Positions 12,926 to 61,650 of a stretch of DNA of 64,000 bases are shown piece by piece. A model generated the notes under the pieces. The model saw only the letters and a list, made by a program, of their open reading frames with translations, did no database searches and was not told the origin of the DNA. Within the stretch, counting starts at the first letter, position 1, and every line of letters begins with the position of its first letter. Where the stretch lies: positions 1 through 64,000 of the forward strand of contig PDRZ01000023.1 of NCBI GenBank assembly GCA_002747035.1. The letters run 5' to 3'. The position numbers and the translations under genes are program-made. The DNA is from Rhodobacterales bacterium (GTDB lineage Bacteria; Pseudomonadota; Alphaproteobacteria; Rhodobacterales; Rhodobacteraceae).

Positions 12926-14485
12926 ATGAGGCCGCAACAAAAATCTGTGTTGATCACCCTGCAAAAGGAGCTGCAGCGGATCCTGTTCGGTCCACAGGTT
13001 CTGGCGTTCCTGCCCGCTCTCGTCCTGGCCGCGTACTGGACTGCGGGTGAAGTGGCTTTGCTGGTCGTCGCCATTGGTGTCCCCTTTCTGGCCCTGCTCG
13101 CGGGCGGTTTTCAGGAACGCCTGCAAACCGACTCCGCCTCCCTAGATGCCGTCACAAATCTTCCCCTGCGCAACAGCCTGGAATCCCGGATCAATGAACG
13201 GCTTGCCAAGTCGACCACCGGAACAGATGCCAGCGCGGCCCAGGCCATTTGTTTTATCGTTGAAATAGAAGAGTTTGCACGCTTTCGCGAGCGTCACAGC
13301 CCAAGCGAGGCGGACACCATCCTCCAGCGGATTGCGGAGCGGCTTGAAACCGCTCTGCGCGATGGCGACCTGCTGACCCGCCTGGGCGCGGCACAGTTTG
13401 GAATTTGTCTGGGCACGATAAATCGGCTGGACCTTGAAACCGGGGTTCAGGTGGCCTCGCGGCTTCAGGCGGCTGTCGAAGATCCGCTTTCGATCAATGG
13501 ACAGGCGGTGTATTTCAACTGTTCCGTTGGCTTCTGCCTGGCATCACGCAGCCCGCGCAAGGTGGGCGAGGCGCTGATCGACAATGCCATTATCGCCTTG
13601 GGCGAAGCCCTGCGCAACGGCCCTTCCGCGATCCGCTCTTATTCCATCGAAATGGGGGAACAAAAGCAAAAGCGCGACACGATGCGCAGCGATTCCGTCA
13701 CCGCTCTGGAACGTGGCGAAATCATCCCGTGGTTCCAACCCCAGGTGTCAACCGATACCGGCGAAGTCACTGGGTTCGAGGCGCTGGCCCGCTGGTTCCA
13801 CCCCGAGAAAGGCATCATCCCCCCCGGCGATTTCCTGCCTGCCCTGGAAGAGGCGGGCCAAATGCAACGGCTGGGCGAAGCGATGCGCCTTCAGGCCCTG
13901 ACAGCGCTCTGCGCGTGGGATGCCGCTGGTCTGAATGTGCCCTGCGTCGCGGTGAACTTCACCGGAGAAGAGTTGCGCGATCCGCGGCTCACCGAGAAGA
14001 TTCGCTGGGATCTGGACCGTTTCGATCTGGACCCGAGCAGGTTGACCGTCGAAGTTCTCGAAACCGTCATCGCCGGGGCCCCCGAAGACACCGCAGCCCG
14101 CAATCTCGCCAAACTGTCGGAAATGGGGTGCCGTATTGATCTGGATGATTTTGGCACGGGCCATGCGTCGATCACCGCCATTCGGCAGTTCACCGTCAAC
14201 CGGCTCAAGATCGACCGCAGTTTTGTCAGCCATGTGGACACAGATGCCGAACAACAACGCATGGTGTCCGCTATCCTGACCATGGCCGAACGACTGGGGC
14301 TGGAAACGCTGGGCGAAGGTGTTGAAAACTCGGGCGAACACAACATGCTGGCACAATTGGGCTGTGGTCATGTGCAAGGGTTCGGCATCGCCCGCCCAAT
14401 GCCGTTCGATCAAACCATCGACTGGATTCGGGGGCATCGCGCCAAGGTCGGCAAACTGCCCCATATCGGGCGCAAATCCGGCTGA
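12926..14485 (+). CDS. Membrane-associated GGDEF/EAL protein, GGDEF half degenerate
   Basis: A 519-residue protein with two N-terminal hydrophobic segments (about residues 25-62). A GGDEF-like domain (70-245) follows, whose signature is replaced by GAAQF at 154-158 and is therefore not expected to make cyclic di-GMP. The EAL domain (about 255-505) keeps its key residues: EAL at 285-287, N344, DD at 407-408, K428 and E464. It is probably a cyclic di-GMP phosphodiesterase. The start MRPQQKS is preceded by CAGGGGG. It lies between ttcA and yidC in the same orientation. Confidence 0.87.
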   Translation: MRPQQKSVLITLQKELQRILFGPQVLAFLPALVLAAYWTAGEVALLVVAIGVPFLALLAGGFQERLQTDSASLDAVTNLPLRNSLESRINERLAKSTTGTDASAAQAICFIVEIEEFARFRERHSPSEADTILQRIAERLETALRDGDLLTRLGAAQFGICLGTINRLDLETGVQVASRLQAAVEDPLSINGQAVYFNCSVGFCLASRSPRKVGEALIDNAIIALGEALRNGPSAIRSYSIEMGEQKQKRDTMRSDSVTALERGEIIPWFQPQVSTDTGEVTGFEALARWFHPEKGIIPPGDFLPALEEAGQMQRLGEAMRLQALTALCAWDAAGLNVPCVAVNFTGEELRDPRLTEKIRWDLDRFDLDPSRLTVEVLETVIAGAPEDTAARNLAKLSEMGCRIDLDDFGTGHASITAIRQFTVNRLKIDRSFVSHVDTDAEQQRMVSAILTMAERLGLETLGEGVENSGEHNMLAQLGCGHVQGFGIARPMPFDQTIDWIRGHRAKVGKLPHIGRKSG

Positions 14486-19395: not shown

Positions 19396-19983
19396 ATGTT
19401 CTATGAACCCAAAAACGGCCACGGGCTGCCCCACAACCCGTTCAACGCCATTATCACCCCGCGTCCCATTGGATGGGTTTCGACCTTATCGCCCGATGGG
19501 GTGCGCAACCTTGCCCCCTATTCGTTTTTCAATGGCGTGGCCTATGTGCCGCCCCAGGTGATGTTCGCTTCAACCGGCACCAAGGATTCCCTGAGCAATA
19601 TCAAGGCTTCAGGCGTGTTTTGCATCAACGTGGTGGAACGCGCGGCGATAGACGCGATGAACGTCACCTCGGAAGGGTTCGACCCGTCGGTGGACGAATT
19701 TGCCCGCGCGGGGCTCAAGGTCGCAGCGTGCGAAACCATCAACGCGCCCCGTGTGGCCAACGCCCCGGCGGCGCTGGAATGTGTTGTGACCGATATCCAC
19801 CGGCTGCGCGGTGAAGACAACCACATGGTCCTGGGCGAAGTCACCGGCATCCACCTGCGCGACGACTGTATCGTGGACGGCCTGTTTGACGTGACCCGCT
19901 ACACCCCGCTCGCCCGGCTTGGGTATCGCGATTACACCTCTGTGACCGAAACCTTCACCCTGTCGCGGCCGGACGGCACATGA
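19396..19983 (+). CDS. Flavin reductase family protein
   Basis: A 195-residue protein with the FMN-binding split-barrel pattern: ITPRPIGWVSTLSPDGVRNLAPYSFFNGVAYVPPQVMFAST near the N-terminus and ALECVVTDIHRL in the middle. Such proteins reduce flavins with NAD(P)H or serve as the reductase partner of two-component monooxygenases. No monooxygenase is adjacent. The stop codon overlaps the ATG of the EamA transporter (ATGA), so the two are translationally coupled. Confidence 0.88.
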   Translation: MFYEPKNGHGLPHNPFNAIITPRPIGWVSTLSPDGVRNLAPYSFFNGVAYVPPQVMFASTGTKDSLSNIKASGVFCINVVERAAIDAMNVTSEGFDPSVDEFARAGLKVAACETINAPRVANAPAALECVVTDIHRLRGEDNHMVLGEVTGIHLRDDCIVDGLFDVTRYTPLARLGYRDYTSVTETFTLSRPDGT

Positions 19984-20834
19984 CCGGGTCCGGGCTTCTT
20001 CGCCTTGGGCTGCTGATCTTTACTGCCACGTCCTTTGTGGTGCTGGGGGATACTGCGGGCAAGCTGATGACCCAGTCGGGGATCAGCCCGTTTTTCGTGG
20101 CCTTCACCCGCTTTGCCCTCGCCGCGCTGTGCCTGCTGCCGTTCAGCGGTCTGACACGGGACGAACTGCCGACTCTGCTGCATTGGCGCATCCTGCTGCG
20201 CGCCGCGCTGATTGTCGGAGGTATCTGTTCCATTCTGACCGCGTTGAAAACCGAACCTATCGCCAATGTGTTCGGCGGGTTTTATATTGGCCCGGTTGTG
20301 TCTTATGGTCTGGCGATCCTGTTTCTTGGGGAACGGACATCACCGCTGCGCACCCTGTTCCTGTTGATCGGGTTTGCCGGGGTGATGCTGGTCGTGAAGC
20401 CCGGGTTCGGGGCGACGGCCGGCATGGGGTTTGCGCTGTTGGCAGGGTGTTTCTACGGTGCCTACCTGACCACCACCCGCGCCGTGGCCGGGGCGTATCG
20501 CCCACGTTTTCTGTTGATTTCTCAACTTGTTATCGGCTCCGTCCTGCTCACCCCTGCCGGGCTATCAGCCTCTCTGCCAACAGTTGACCCCACCCTAGTG
20601 GCATTGATTATCCTCAGCGCGGGCGGCTCGGCCGTTGGCAATTTCCTGTTGGTTCAGGCCAATCGCAAGGCCGATGCCAGCCTGATTGCCCCGCTGATCT
20701 ATACCCAACTGATTTCGGCCACGCTGCTTGGGGTTCTGGTGTTTGGCGACTGGCCCGACGCGGTATCGCTTCTGGGGTTGATCGTCATTGCCTGTTCCGG
20801 GTTTGGATCTCTGTTGGTGCCCCGTCGCCTCTAA
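19980..20834 (+). CDS. EamA/DMT-type transporter
   Basis: A 284-residue protein of about ten predicted transmembrane helices made of two EamA halves (residues about 5-140 and 145-282). The drug/metabolite transporter superfamily exports small metabolites, and the substrate is unknown. The start overlaps the flavin reductase stop. The stop codon TAA is made of a genomic TA plus the first A of the 111-bp element that begins at 20834, so the present C-terminus (VPRRL) may have been set or preserved by the insertion. Confidence 0.88.
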   Translation: MTGSGLLRLGLLIFTATSFVVLGDTAGKLMTQSGISPFFVAFTRFALAALCLLPFSGLTRDELPTLLHWRILLRAALIVGGICSILTALKTEPIANVFGGFYIGPVVSYGLAILFLGERTSPLRTLFLLIGFAGVMLVVKPGFGATAGMGFALLAGCFYGAYLTTTRAVAGAYRPRFLLISQLVIGSVLLTPAGLSASLPTVDPTLVALIILSAGGSAVGNFLLVQANRKADASLIAPLIYTQLISATLLGVLVFGDWPDAVSLLGLIVIACSGFGSLLVPRRL

Positions 20835-20944
20835 ACCGTTCGCCCTTTAACCTGAAACCGGGAAAAGAGCGAAGGCAGCGCAACACTTATGTGTTTCGCG
20901 CGTCCTGCCAAAATCCCGTGAGTCAGGTTTTTGGCAGGACGCTT
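20834..20944 (-). mobile_element. 111-bp hairpin element, family 1, copy A
   Basis: Non-coding element of exactly 111 bp. Read on the minus strand it starts AAGCGTCCTGCC at 20944 and ends AACGGTT at 20834. It contains the family 1 terminal hairpin (GCGTCCTGCCAAAA pairing with TTTTGGCAGGACGC) and differs from copy C at about 12 positions. The flank at 20832-20833 is TA; the other side reads GA, so the target duplication is not intact. It forms the stop codon of the EamA gene and lies in the leader region of the sulfide:quinone oxidoreductase gene. Confidence 0.75.
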
Positions 20945-22877: not shown

Positions 22878-23568
22878 TCAGAACACCGCCTCCGCGACGG
22901 CGATCCAGATCGACAGGCTGACCGCTGACAACAACGTGGTCTGCGCCACCAAGGTCGCCGCCAATGCGCGATCCGCGTCAAACCCTGCCACCAGCACATG
23001 CGCCGCCGACGCCATGGGCAGCGCAGCAAAGATGACCAGCACCACCACCAGGGGTCCCGACACCCCAAGCGCCAAAGCGGTGGCCGCGACCGCGCCCGGC
23101 AACAGGATCAATTTGACGGCGGCGATATGCCCGGTGAACCGGCTCAACCGGGCCAACGCGCTCCAATTCATCGTCGCGCCGACCGAAATCAATGCCACCG
23201 GAATCGCTGCTTGCGCCAGCATCCGCAAGGGCACCATGATCGGTGCCGGGATAGTGATCCCGGACAGGCCCACCAAAGCGTCCTGCCAAAAACCCGTGAT
23301 TCAGGTTTTTGGCAGGACGCGCAAAACACATAAATGTCGCGCTGCCTTCGCCCTTTTCCCTGTCTCAGATTAAAGGACGAACGCTTCAGAACGCCGGAAA
23401 GCGACGCCAGCAGAAACGGGTTCAACGCCACTTTCTTTGCCGTGCCCCAGATCCCAAGGTGACCCCCCGCGACAGGACAGAGACAGCAAACACATTGGCC
23501 ACAGGCACCGCCAAGCCCAGCCAAAAGGACCGAGGGCAAAAAAGGATGGACCAGAACGCCCTGACGGA
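22878..23568 (-). pseudogene. AEC family transporter, truncated, frameshifted and interrupted by a 111-bp element
   Basis: The remains of an auxin-efflux-carrier-family permease. The C-terminal part (from VGLSGITIPAPIMVP to VAEAVF, 22878-23273) is intact. Just upstream the 111-bp element occupies 23276-23386. Beyond it lie VALNPFLLASLSGVL and, split over two reading frames, PFLPSVLL and LAVPVANVFAVSVLSRG. This implies a 1-nt insertion near 23525 and a 1-nt loss in the C-run at 23463-23468. The N-terminal half of the expected roughly 310 residues is missing, since the SulP stop codon is at 23569. The gene cannot make a working transporter. Confidence 0.82.
23276..23386 (+). mobile_element. 111-bp hairpin element, family 1, copy B, inserted in the AEC gene
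   Basis: Exactly 111 bp, starting AAGCGTCCTGCC and ending GACGAACGCTT, flanked on both sides by CA (23274-23275 and 23387-23388; TG on the coding strand of the transporter). Removing the element and one CA joins GGC GTT CTG to GTG GGC CTG in frame, giving SGVLVGLSG as expected for AEC proteins. The loop of its terminal hairpin is inverted relative to copies A and C. Confidence 0.88.
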
Positions 23569-44469: not shown

Positions 44470-44580
44470 AAGCGTCCTGCCAAAAACCTGACTCACGGGA
44501 TTTTGGCAGGACGCGCGAAACACACAAATGTCGCGCTGCGTTCGCCCTTTTCCTTGACTCAGGTGAAAGGTCGAACGCTT
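44470..44580 (+). mobile_element. 111-bp hairpin element, family 1, copy C, with TA duplication
   Basis: Exactly 111 bp, from AAGCGTCCTGCC to GTCGAACGCTT, with TA on both sides (44468-44469 and 44581-44582). The terminal hairpin pairs GCGTCCTGCCAAAA with TTTTGGCAGGACGC; the second hairpin pairs GCGTTCG with CGAACGC near the other end. No ORF of note. It lies between the scoB terminator and the parC stop. Confidence 0.85.
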
Positions 44581-51452: not shown

Positions 51453-51558
51453 ATCCGGTATTACGTTGAACCAGCGTGATGTGGAAACGCTGCGCAATAC
51501 AGTAGGGATGTAGGTGTTTCCGGCTATTGCTGTGATCCAACAATAACCGGAAACGCTT
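51453..51558 (-). mobile_element. Hairpin element, family 2, copy D (106 bp)
   Basis: Read on the minus strand it starts AAGCGTTTCCGG at 51558 and ends CCGGAT at 51453. It matches copy E at about 86% of the first 100 positions and is shorter by a 5-nt deletion near the end, giving 106 bp. TA is present at the 51559-51560 side only. The first A of the element plus that TA form the TAA stop of the dctM gene. It lies between the convergent copA and dctM genes. Confidence 0.72.
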
Positions 51559-53006
51559 TAATTCCCATAGGCCACCGCAGGCAACCACGTGGTCAGTTCG
51601 GGAAAGAAGAACACGATCGCCAACCCGGTCAGCTGTAGCAACACGAACGGGATCACACCGCGATAGATATGGCCCAGCGTGATTGACGGCGGGCACACCC
51701 CTTTCAGGTAGAACAGCGCGAACCCGACAGGTGGCGTCAGGAACGACGTCTGTAACGTCACCGCCACAAGGATCGCGAACCACACCACCGACGGATTATC
51801 CACGATACCATACCCGTCCACCGGCAACTCAAGCCCAAGGATCACCGGCAACATCAGCGGCATGATGATCAAGGTGATCTCGATCCAGTCCAGCAGGAAC
51901 CCGAGCAGGAAGATAATGAACAGGATGAACAACACCACCACGTAAGGGTTGTCAAAGCTGCCCAGCACAAGGTTTTCAATAATCTCATCCCCGCCAAACC
52001 GGCGCAGAACGAAAGCAAAGAAATTGGCGGCGATGAAAATCCCCACGATATACCCGGCCGTGTTCAGCGTCTGGCGCATCACATCCTTGAACACGGTAAA
52101 GTTCAGGTTGCGCGACGCCAGCGCCAACCCGGTCGCGCCCAGCGCACCCAGACCCGAGGCCTCGGTCGGGGTGGCGATGCCGAAAAAGATCGACCCCAGC
52201 ACCAGAAGAACCAGCAACATGGGCGGCACCACGGATTTCAGAACCTCAAGAATGATGGCAAAGCTCACCGGTTCGCGGTCTTCGGGCACCGGCATCGCTT
52301 CGGGTTTGATCAGGCCATAGATGATGATGAACACGATATATAGCGTGCCCAGCAACAGCCCCGGGAACAGCGCCCCCATGAACAGATCGCCCAGCGAAAT
52401 CGCCAACTGGTCCGACATGATCACCAACATGATCGACGGCGGGATCAGAATACCCAACGTCCCCGACGCGGCAATCGTGCCCGTGGCAATCGGCTTGGCA
52501 TAATTCTGCGCCATCATCGTCGGAATGCCCATAACGCCCAGCAACACGACCGACGCCCCGATCACCCCCGTGGACGCGGCCAGAATGATCCCGATCACCA
52601 TGACAGTCAGTGCCAGACCGCCCTTGAGCGCACCAAACAGGACCTGCATGGACTTCATCATGCGCTGCGCAACACCGGATTGATCCAGCATCAGCCCCAT
52701 GAAGATAAACATCGGCAGCGCAACCAGAACCGGGTTCTTGATGATCCCACCAAAGAACCGCCCCGAATTGACAAACATCTTCTTGTAGGTGATGCCGGTG
52801 CGGTCAAACTCGATATATTCCCCGATCAGCTTGCGATAGGGGTCCAGCATATGTTCGCCAATCAGCGAAAAGATCAGCGACACCCCAACCAGCGCAAACA
52901 CCACCGGGATCCCGCGAAACAACATCACGATGAACACGATGAACATGGCCAGAACCATCCATTGGTTCAAATCCATGACCGCCCCCATAACAGACAGAAT
53001 TCCCAT
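51558..53006 (-). CDS. dctM: TRAP transporter large permease (DctM)
   Basis: A 482-residue membrane protein with at least twelve hydrophobic helices, the ion-coupled channel subunit of a tripartite carboxylate transporter. GIPVVFALVGVSL, GASVVLLGVMGIPTMM and TPTEASGLGALG are typical DctM segments. GGAGGAG lies 6 bp before the ATG, and it starts 3 bp after dctQ. The last base of its stop codon is the first base of element D. Confidence 0.92.
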   Translation of the reverse strand: MGILSVMGAVMDLNQWMVLAMFIVFIVMLFRGIPVVFALVGVSLIFSLIGEHMLDPYRKLIGEYIEFDRTGITYKKMFVNSGRFFGGIIKNPVLVALPMFIFMGLMLDQSGVAQRMMKSMQVLFGALKGGLALTVMVIGIILAASTGVIGASVVLLGVMGIPTMMAQNYAKPIATGTIAASGTLGILIPPSIMLVIMSDQLAISLGDLFMGALFPGLLLGTLYIVFIIIYGLIKPEAMPVPEDREPVSFAIILEVLKSVVPPMLLVLLVLGSIFFGIATPTEASGLGALGATGLALASRNLNFTVFKDVMRQTLNTAGYIVGIFIAANFFAFVLRRFGGDEIIENLVLGSFDNPYVVVLFILFIIFLLGFLLDWIEITLIIMPLMLPVILGLELPVDGYGIVDNPSVVWFAILVAVTLQTSFLTPPVGFALFYLKGVCPPSITLGHIYRGVIPFVLLQLTGLAIVFFFPELTTWLPAVAYGN

Positions 53007-61384: not shown

Positions 61385-61445
61385 GGTATCTCCTGCCCGT
61401 TGATCGGGCGCGGCCTATCCGCCCCCTTCGAAAGCCGGGACCCTA

Positions 61446-61556
61446 AAGCGTTTCCAGTTCCTGTTGAATCACAGCAAGAACTGGAAACGCCCACATCCCT
61501 GCTGTGTTGCGCAGCGTTTCCACATCACGCTGGGTCAACGTCATGCGGAAACGGAT
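61446..61556 (+). mobile_element. 111-bp hairpin element, family 2, copy E, with TA duplication
   Basis: Exactly 111 bp, from AAGCGTTTCCAG to GGAAACGGAT, with TA on both sides (61444-61445 and 61557-61558). The terminal hairpin pairs GCGTTTCCAGTTC with GAACTGGAAACGC; a second hairpin pairs CGTTTCCACATCACG with CGTCATGCGGAAACG (13 of 15). It lies between the divergent FKBP and HAD genes. Confidence 0.85.
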
Positions 61557-61650
61557 TAGCAGGTGGCGGAGATGAATGCAAACACGCCCCGCTTTGGGCT
61601 TTTCTCCATGCCCGCCCCGTGCCAACGTGGCGCGGATGAGGAGACGCGCC

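Follow-up and report, generated by a model that had tools for sequence, protein, structure and literature searches.

Among the repeats of alphaproteobacteria, the Caulobacter CcrM-associated intergenic repeats CIR1-4 were reportedly described by Chen and Shapiro in 2003. According to the available part of a 2007 review (PMC2229807), CIR occur in alphaproteobacteria, are about 110 bp long, consist of two long inverted-repeat arms and a linker, and have TA termini and a GANTC in the loop of one of the arms. The same text lists them without a terminal inverted repeat, with the target duplication unknown and as not found in genes, and says of their movement that more information is needed (PMC2229807), while a 2024 review, in the excerpt available, calls them strictly intergenic (PMC10969869). 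The pneumococcal RUP is 107 bp long, is present in 108 copies, has IS630-like ends and TA as its target and is found inside IS genes; its description in the available part of the 2007 review mentions no two-arm structure with a linker (PMC2229807). ERIC, Correia/NEMIS and other TA-ended bacterial MITEs are also short, hairpin-forming and repeated, and are described in that part of the review without arms or linker, the stem being formed by pairing of the 5' end with the 3' end (PMC2229807). For ISY100, a member of the IS630 family, the excerpt of the original report states that the transposase alone excises and inserts in vitro, that 30 bp of each end suffice (the ends being 24 bp) and that insertion occurs almost only at TA, with 34 of 39 products normal and 2 at AA/TT (PMC2170065).

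The window analysed here (64,000 nucleotides of contig PDRZ01000023.1 of a Rhodobacterales bacterium) contains an element which resembles these systems in different respects, all of them compared by description as far as the sources give it. It shares with CIR the alphaproteobacterial host, TA at its ends, a length of about 110 bp and the plan of two arms and a linker, and we consider CIR the closest known system in architecture. In contrast to the CIR of the reviews, its ends are IS630 ends, a target duplication can be demonstrated and it is not strictly intergenic, one copy (copy B) lying in the remnant of an AEC transporter gene and another (L029) in the remnant of an IS630 transposase gene. 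Because of this position within genes we file it as an IS630 MITE and not as a CIR, which we know by description only. The closest precedent for the mechanism is the pair RUP/IS630-Spn1: our element is likewise short, with IS630 ends and a TA target, and the L029 copy in a transposase remnant recalls the RUP found inside IS genes, whereas the two arms with a linker and the host set it apart from the RUP described. Shortness, hairpins, TA termini and repetition are shared with ERIC and Correia/NEMIS, from which the element differs in its two arms and linker and in its hosts. A description of this element was not found in the literature searched, the coverage of which leaves out most subscription papers.

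We put at about nine in ten the probability that the element is a non-autonomous MITE belonging to the IS630 family (Tc1/mariner-type) and mobilised by an IS630 transposase acting in trans. It is short, carries no transposase and occurs in many dispersed copies with fixed ends, these ends match the ends of IS630 insertion sequences, and it inserts at TA with duplication of the TA, in a minority of cases at CA, TG or GA. The features around copy B are as follows.

22878..23273, minus strand: AEC transporter gene interrupted by copy B, C-terminal part (PF03547 positions 216-343)
23274..23275, plus strand: left CA of the target duplication flanking copy B
23276..23386, plus strand: element copy B, 111 bp, non-coding, two hairpins, very probably a MITE
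23278..23320, plus strand: arm 1 of copy B, a 17-bp perfect stem with GATTC (GANTC) in the loop
23321..23342, plus strand: linker of copy B, folding in B into a weak hairpin without support across relatives
23344..23384, plus strand: arm 2 of copy B, an imperfect hairpin built on the right end of the IS
23387..23388, plus strand: right CA of the target duplication flanking copy B
23389..23568, minus strand: remaining upstream AEC pieces, frameshifted, up to the SulP stop

The initial annotation had described a non-coding element of 111 bp flanked by a CA duplication, and both the exact length (23276-23386) and the two CA dinucleotides (23274-23275 and 23387-23388) are borne out; the span 23274..23388 which it had assigned to the element takes in both dinucleotides, the element itself being 23276-23386. 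It had also claimed that the empty site can be reconstructed within the AEC gene. The AEC part downstream of the insert matches PF03547 positions 216-343 (Pfam, E 8e-11), and an AEC homologue is present in 25 of the 40 other genomes searched. Ten of these homologues, all from other genera, were taken into an alignment of the junction, and all ten cross the rejoined junction without a gap. Insert-free homologues thus exist, though only from other genera, as the searches turned up no second species of this genus, and the opposite outcome, which the annotation had named as one that would count against it, was not seen. Deletion of the insert together with one CA does join SGVL to VGLSG in one frame; what needs correcting is the state of the gene. 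The open frames of the AEC homologues comprise 305-357 codons with 164-207 residues ahead of the aligned part, whereas the window locus has room for only about 60 codons there, up to the stop of the SulP gene, and the AEC-like pieces are spread over at least two frames, the 5' part being missing or frameshifted. Therefore the AEC gene is today a remnant, and excision of the insert restores the frame locally but not the gene; the decay may have preceded or followed the arrival of copy B.

Two further near-full copies with the same boundaries are present in the window.

20834..20944, minus strand: element copy A, 111 bp, flanks TC/TA (not identical)
44470..44580, plus strand: element copy C, 111 bp, flanks TA/TA

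Copy A starts at the stop codon (20832-20834) of gene 19980-20834, which we take to be EamA-like, and the flanking TA together with the first A of the copy makes up the TAA stop of this gene. Insertion into the TA of a TAA or TAG stop would preserve the stop.

We searched the whole genome to which the window belongs (an assembly of 2.5 Mb, 77.7% complete) with a covariance model built from 31 element copies, which gave at least 135 matches at E 0.01 (150 scored of 1,458 candidates). Since arm 1 is palindromic, many of the 135 are second matches on the opposite strand. We restricted the count to the 59 highest-scoring places (79.5 bits and above) and set aside the weaker ones, some of which are further copies, shorter or more diverged; two of the 59 strong matches, C6:101867 and C26:100, which lie at contig ends and have the same flanks, are probably one locus. 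The annotation had proposed a search for more copies with this boundary, and such copies were found: with the two dinucleotides included, 42 of the 59 measure exactly 115 bp. Variable boundaries, which it had listed as evidence against a unit, were not seen, 55 of the 59 copies falling within 113-117 bp.

The flanking dinucleotides are TA on both sides in 37 of the 59 copies, identical and other than TA in five (CA/CA twice, one of them copy B, TG/TG twice and GA/GA once) and different between the two sides in 17. Both dinucleotides are non-TA in six copies, and in five of these six the pair is identical. When the right sides were shuffled among the 55 copies of 113-117 bp (10,000 shuffles), the five identical non-TA pairs stood against 0.43 expected (p ~0.0001), and the 40 identical pairs of any kind against 33.2 (p ~0.0004). 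The usual target, as judged from these flanks, is TA, with the CA of copy B in the minority. In 58 of the 59 copies a C or T precedes the left dinucleotide and in 48 an A or G follows the right one, an asymmetry of the target with a Fisher p of 0.004.

Empty sites are also found where the element has entered other repeats. The copy at C40:221599 is inserted within a repeat of another family, and its flanks, rejoined with one TA and compared by eye with the window repeat copy at 51460, give an uninterrupted repeat. The copy at C37:100776 rejoins likewise, except that other members of the host repeat family read CA against its TA. The reverse order occurs at C3 (~13911-14124), where a repeat with TAAAGCG ends is nested inside a copy of the 111-bp element. 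As far as sequence comparison can establish movement, copy B is shown to have moved as one unit with a 2-bp target duplication, as the initial annotation had proposed: the matching non-TA pairs at five copies, B included, and the empty site of the nested copy agree in this.

Open frames of at least 120 codons run across the rejoined site in 21 of the 59 copies, which in GC-rich DNA is weak evidence for gene interruption. Seven of these 21 frames were scanned with Pfam, and only at L029 does a domain, DDE_3, cross the junction; in two the domain ends before it (TP_methylase, Peptidase_S9) and four, among them the acyltransferase-looking L023, gave no Pfam match. Copy B belongs to the 14 frames outside that scan, its downstream part having been scanned separately. 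Taking Pfam and the AEC alignment together, the interruptions supported by homology are B and L029, the latter an insertion into the remnant of an IS630 transposase gene.

The element is not confined to this genome. A search of genome contigs with the pattern of the left end returned 65 stretches, 58 of them with alphaproteobacterial titles, which on reading comprise 31 two-ended elements, 21 IS-type ends (10 of these from one Pseudooceanicola assembly) and 6 stretches with one recognisable end; the seven stretches from other phyla (L155, L170, L172, L175, L178, L195, L203) look like chance matches. We aligned 33 elements, namely 28 of the 31 two-ended ones, two of genome G009 and three of the window genome, leaving out L165, L198 and L200 as three further copies of one assembly. 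The 28 aligned relatives come from 13 named Rhodobacteraceae-type assemblies: ETNP7_MAG_63, three of Celeribacter, Vannielia, Aliiroseovarius, Maritimibacter, Rhodophyticola, Pseudopelagicola, Ruegeria, two of Roseovarius and Rhodobacteraceae 63075. A sequence-only model found the element in at least 8 of the 295 genomes searched from the bacterial family and in at least 1 of the 289 searched from the class; both tallies include the window genome, and 12 candidates per genome were scored, so that these numbers are lower bounds. The distribution among the genomes searched is patchy.

Where does the transposase come from? At the end of contig C2 of the window genome the C-terminus of a transposase adjoins TTAAAGCGTTTCGGCTTTAACCTG, and the 102-bp stretch at this contig end has matches, many of them short, in 36 of the 295 family genomes, counting the window genome. 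In 5 of the 15 loci examined (L114, L120, L121, L124 and L205) the insertion sequence is complete, measuring about 1.05 kb and having the transposase motif as well as both ends. The frame of L121 is DDE_3 (Pfam, E 5e-31), and a plasmid of Octadecabacter sp. SW4 carries a frame with 100% identity to it over 227 aa; among the matches listed, 27 of 30 plasmid relatives are annotated as "IS630 family transposase". A search of plasmid DNA with copy B itself gave no match at E 1e-3.

Over about 28 bp each, the two ends of the element match their counterparts among the two non-identical ends of the IS630. Its left end agrees with the left end of the L121 IS at 24 of 28 positions and with the right end at 19. 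For its right end, compared with the right ends of 12 of 13 loci (L116 was left out), the agreement is 18-24 of 28 and in all 12 exceeds the comparison with the left end; the control of 500 shuffles of one end has a mean of 15.2 and a maximum of 20, and four of the 12 scores (18, 19, 19 and 20) are at or below the best shuffle. In two (L114 and L124) of four complete IS the left end is slightly closer to the right end of the element. The best match to IS630 of the same bacterial family is 24 of 28 at each end of the element, and the right end retains GTC TCA GGT TAA, the last codons of the transposase with its stop. In the window genome four DDE_3 matches were found, all partial or broken, and no intact IS630 copy was seen in the 77.7%-complete assembly, which holds remnants and the contig-end fragment only. 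The 99%-complete genome G009 (L031-L034) has at least 12 element matches yet no DDE_3 match at E 0.01, and its copies would be orphan MITEs.

In the fold of copy B each end of the element is followed by its own inverted copy, which produces two arms and a linker, and the fold has z-scores of -6.0 and -9.3 on the two strands. One could argue that such a structure serves the host: the hairpins could act as RNA (a terminator, an mRNA stability element or a small RNA), with spread being secondary, or the GANTC loop could be a CcrM-linked regulatory site. Folding supports this to some extent, as both arms form hairpins in all 33 aligned elements, with changes on both sides of pairs (for example arm-1 positions 4 and 6, C-G/T-A, and arm-2 position 6, C-G/G-C). 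Compared with base shuffles, arm 1 has a mean z of -5.9 and beats all 100 shuffles in 28 of 33 elements, arm 2 has a mean z of -4.0 and does so in 21 of 33, and these counts ignore the relatedness of the elements and could arise by arm-to-arm copying without selection. The linker shows no excess stability (mean z -0.9, 1 of 33 beating all shuffles), RNAalifold found little covariation in a cross-genus alignment that is one base out of register in arm 1, a scan for terminator- or promoter-like sites at copy B found none, and Rfam gave 0 matches in the window at the gathering score. Because MAFFT puts arm 1 of different subfamilies out of register by one base, each end was folded separately in the counts above.

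The GANTC motif, described for the loop of one CIR arm, is present in the arm-1 loop of 48 of the 59 window-genome copies and absent in 11, and it is also absent in several Celeribacter copies. Against a regulatory site stands also the fact that GANTC is already part of the IS630 left end, as TGAATCG in the consensus of the 21 IS-type ends (10 from one assembly). We regard a host role as an improbable explanation, and a host function is not needed to explain the element. The arm-1 loop is inverted in 5 of the 59 window-genome copies, B among them, while 8 fit neither form; the inverted loops fit arm-to-arm copying or inversion between the arms.

Other repeat families of the window genome are built on the same plan, and two members of one of them, F2, lie in the window.

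51460..51561, minus strand: F2 repeat, right end TTAAAGCGTTTCC, left end degenerate
61444..61558, plus strand: second F2 copy, ends CTAAAGCGTTTCC / GGAAACGGATTAG

F2 has the ends TAAAGCGTTTCC, and shorter versions with a single hairpin (about 51 bp) are found at other places in the window genome. The exact motif YTAAAGCGTTTC has 120 sites in this genome against 2 for the reversed control and, among the matches listed over 289 genomes of the class, at most 6 in other genomes; it thus marks repeat families of the window genome. Of 100 sites listed, facing pairs are found at 51-53 bp at least 10 times (single hairpins) and at 116-118 bp at least 9 times. L109 (C22:13532-16669) is the remnant of an IS630 with an internal deletion, and its right end agrees with F2 and with the single hairpins; near it lies the L029 copy, inserted in another IS630 transposase remnant. 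At L107 (C6:68852-72166) an IS630-type transposase frame with an internal stop has an F2-type repeat (~1288-1402) in or beside it.

A second alternative is mobilisation by another transposase with a TA/YTAR target (for example of the IS5 family) or by a REP/RAYT-type system. A C-terminal fragment which we presume to be IS5-like does adjoin CTAAAGCGTTTC at the end of contig C1, where (L077, C1:6122-6233) the transposase C-terminus lies a few bases past the TAAAGCGTTTC end. The best other matches to the C1 stretch start 8-16 bases inside, past most or all of the motif, from which it follows that the IS5-like unit sits beside the motif; we rejected it as the mobiliser for this reason, and it is probably inserted in or beside one of these repeats. 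The end-by-end match of the element is to IS630, and a TA duplication is a poor fit to REP elements. This alternative appears to us very improbable, even more so than a host role.

Under the preferred reading as an IS630 MITE, we infer that an IS630 transposase supplied in trans would bind both ends of the element, cut it out and paste it into TA, occasionally into CA, TG or GA. The element has the two ends and the TA targets which the mechanism described for ISY100 needs, and its minority of CA, TG and GA duplications would fit the small target relaxation reported there. As each end carries an inverted copy just inside, the element becomes two hairpins joined by a short linker, and these hairpins may be maintained because one arm is copied from the other when the DNA replicates, in line with the flipped arm-1 loop of copy B, or because selection acts on the structure.

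What follows from this for CIR is more tentative. It is possible, though we think it rather doubtful, that the alphaproteobacterial CIR-type two-arm repeats, whose GANTC has been regarded as regulatory, are IS630 MITEs; otherwise our element is an ordinary, if heavily amplified, MITE. Dam times the transposition of other elements to DNA replication. If CIR-type repeats are IS630 MITEs, GANTC would be part of the end of the transposase's element, and methylation by CcrM could in the same way time transposition to DNA replication. Irrespective of CIR, the element ties a two-hairpin alphaproteobacterial repeat to a parent transposon that can be named, and its duplication and empty sites are resolved to single bases. 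The IS end is thereby a concrete candidate source for the GANTC motif in such repeats, and the movement of CIR-like repeats becomes a directly testable question.
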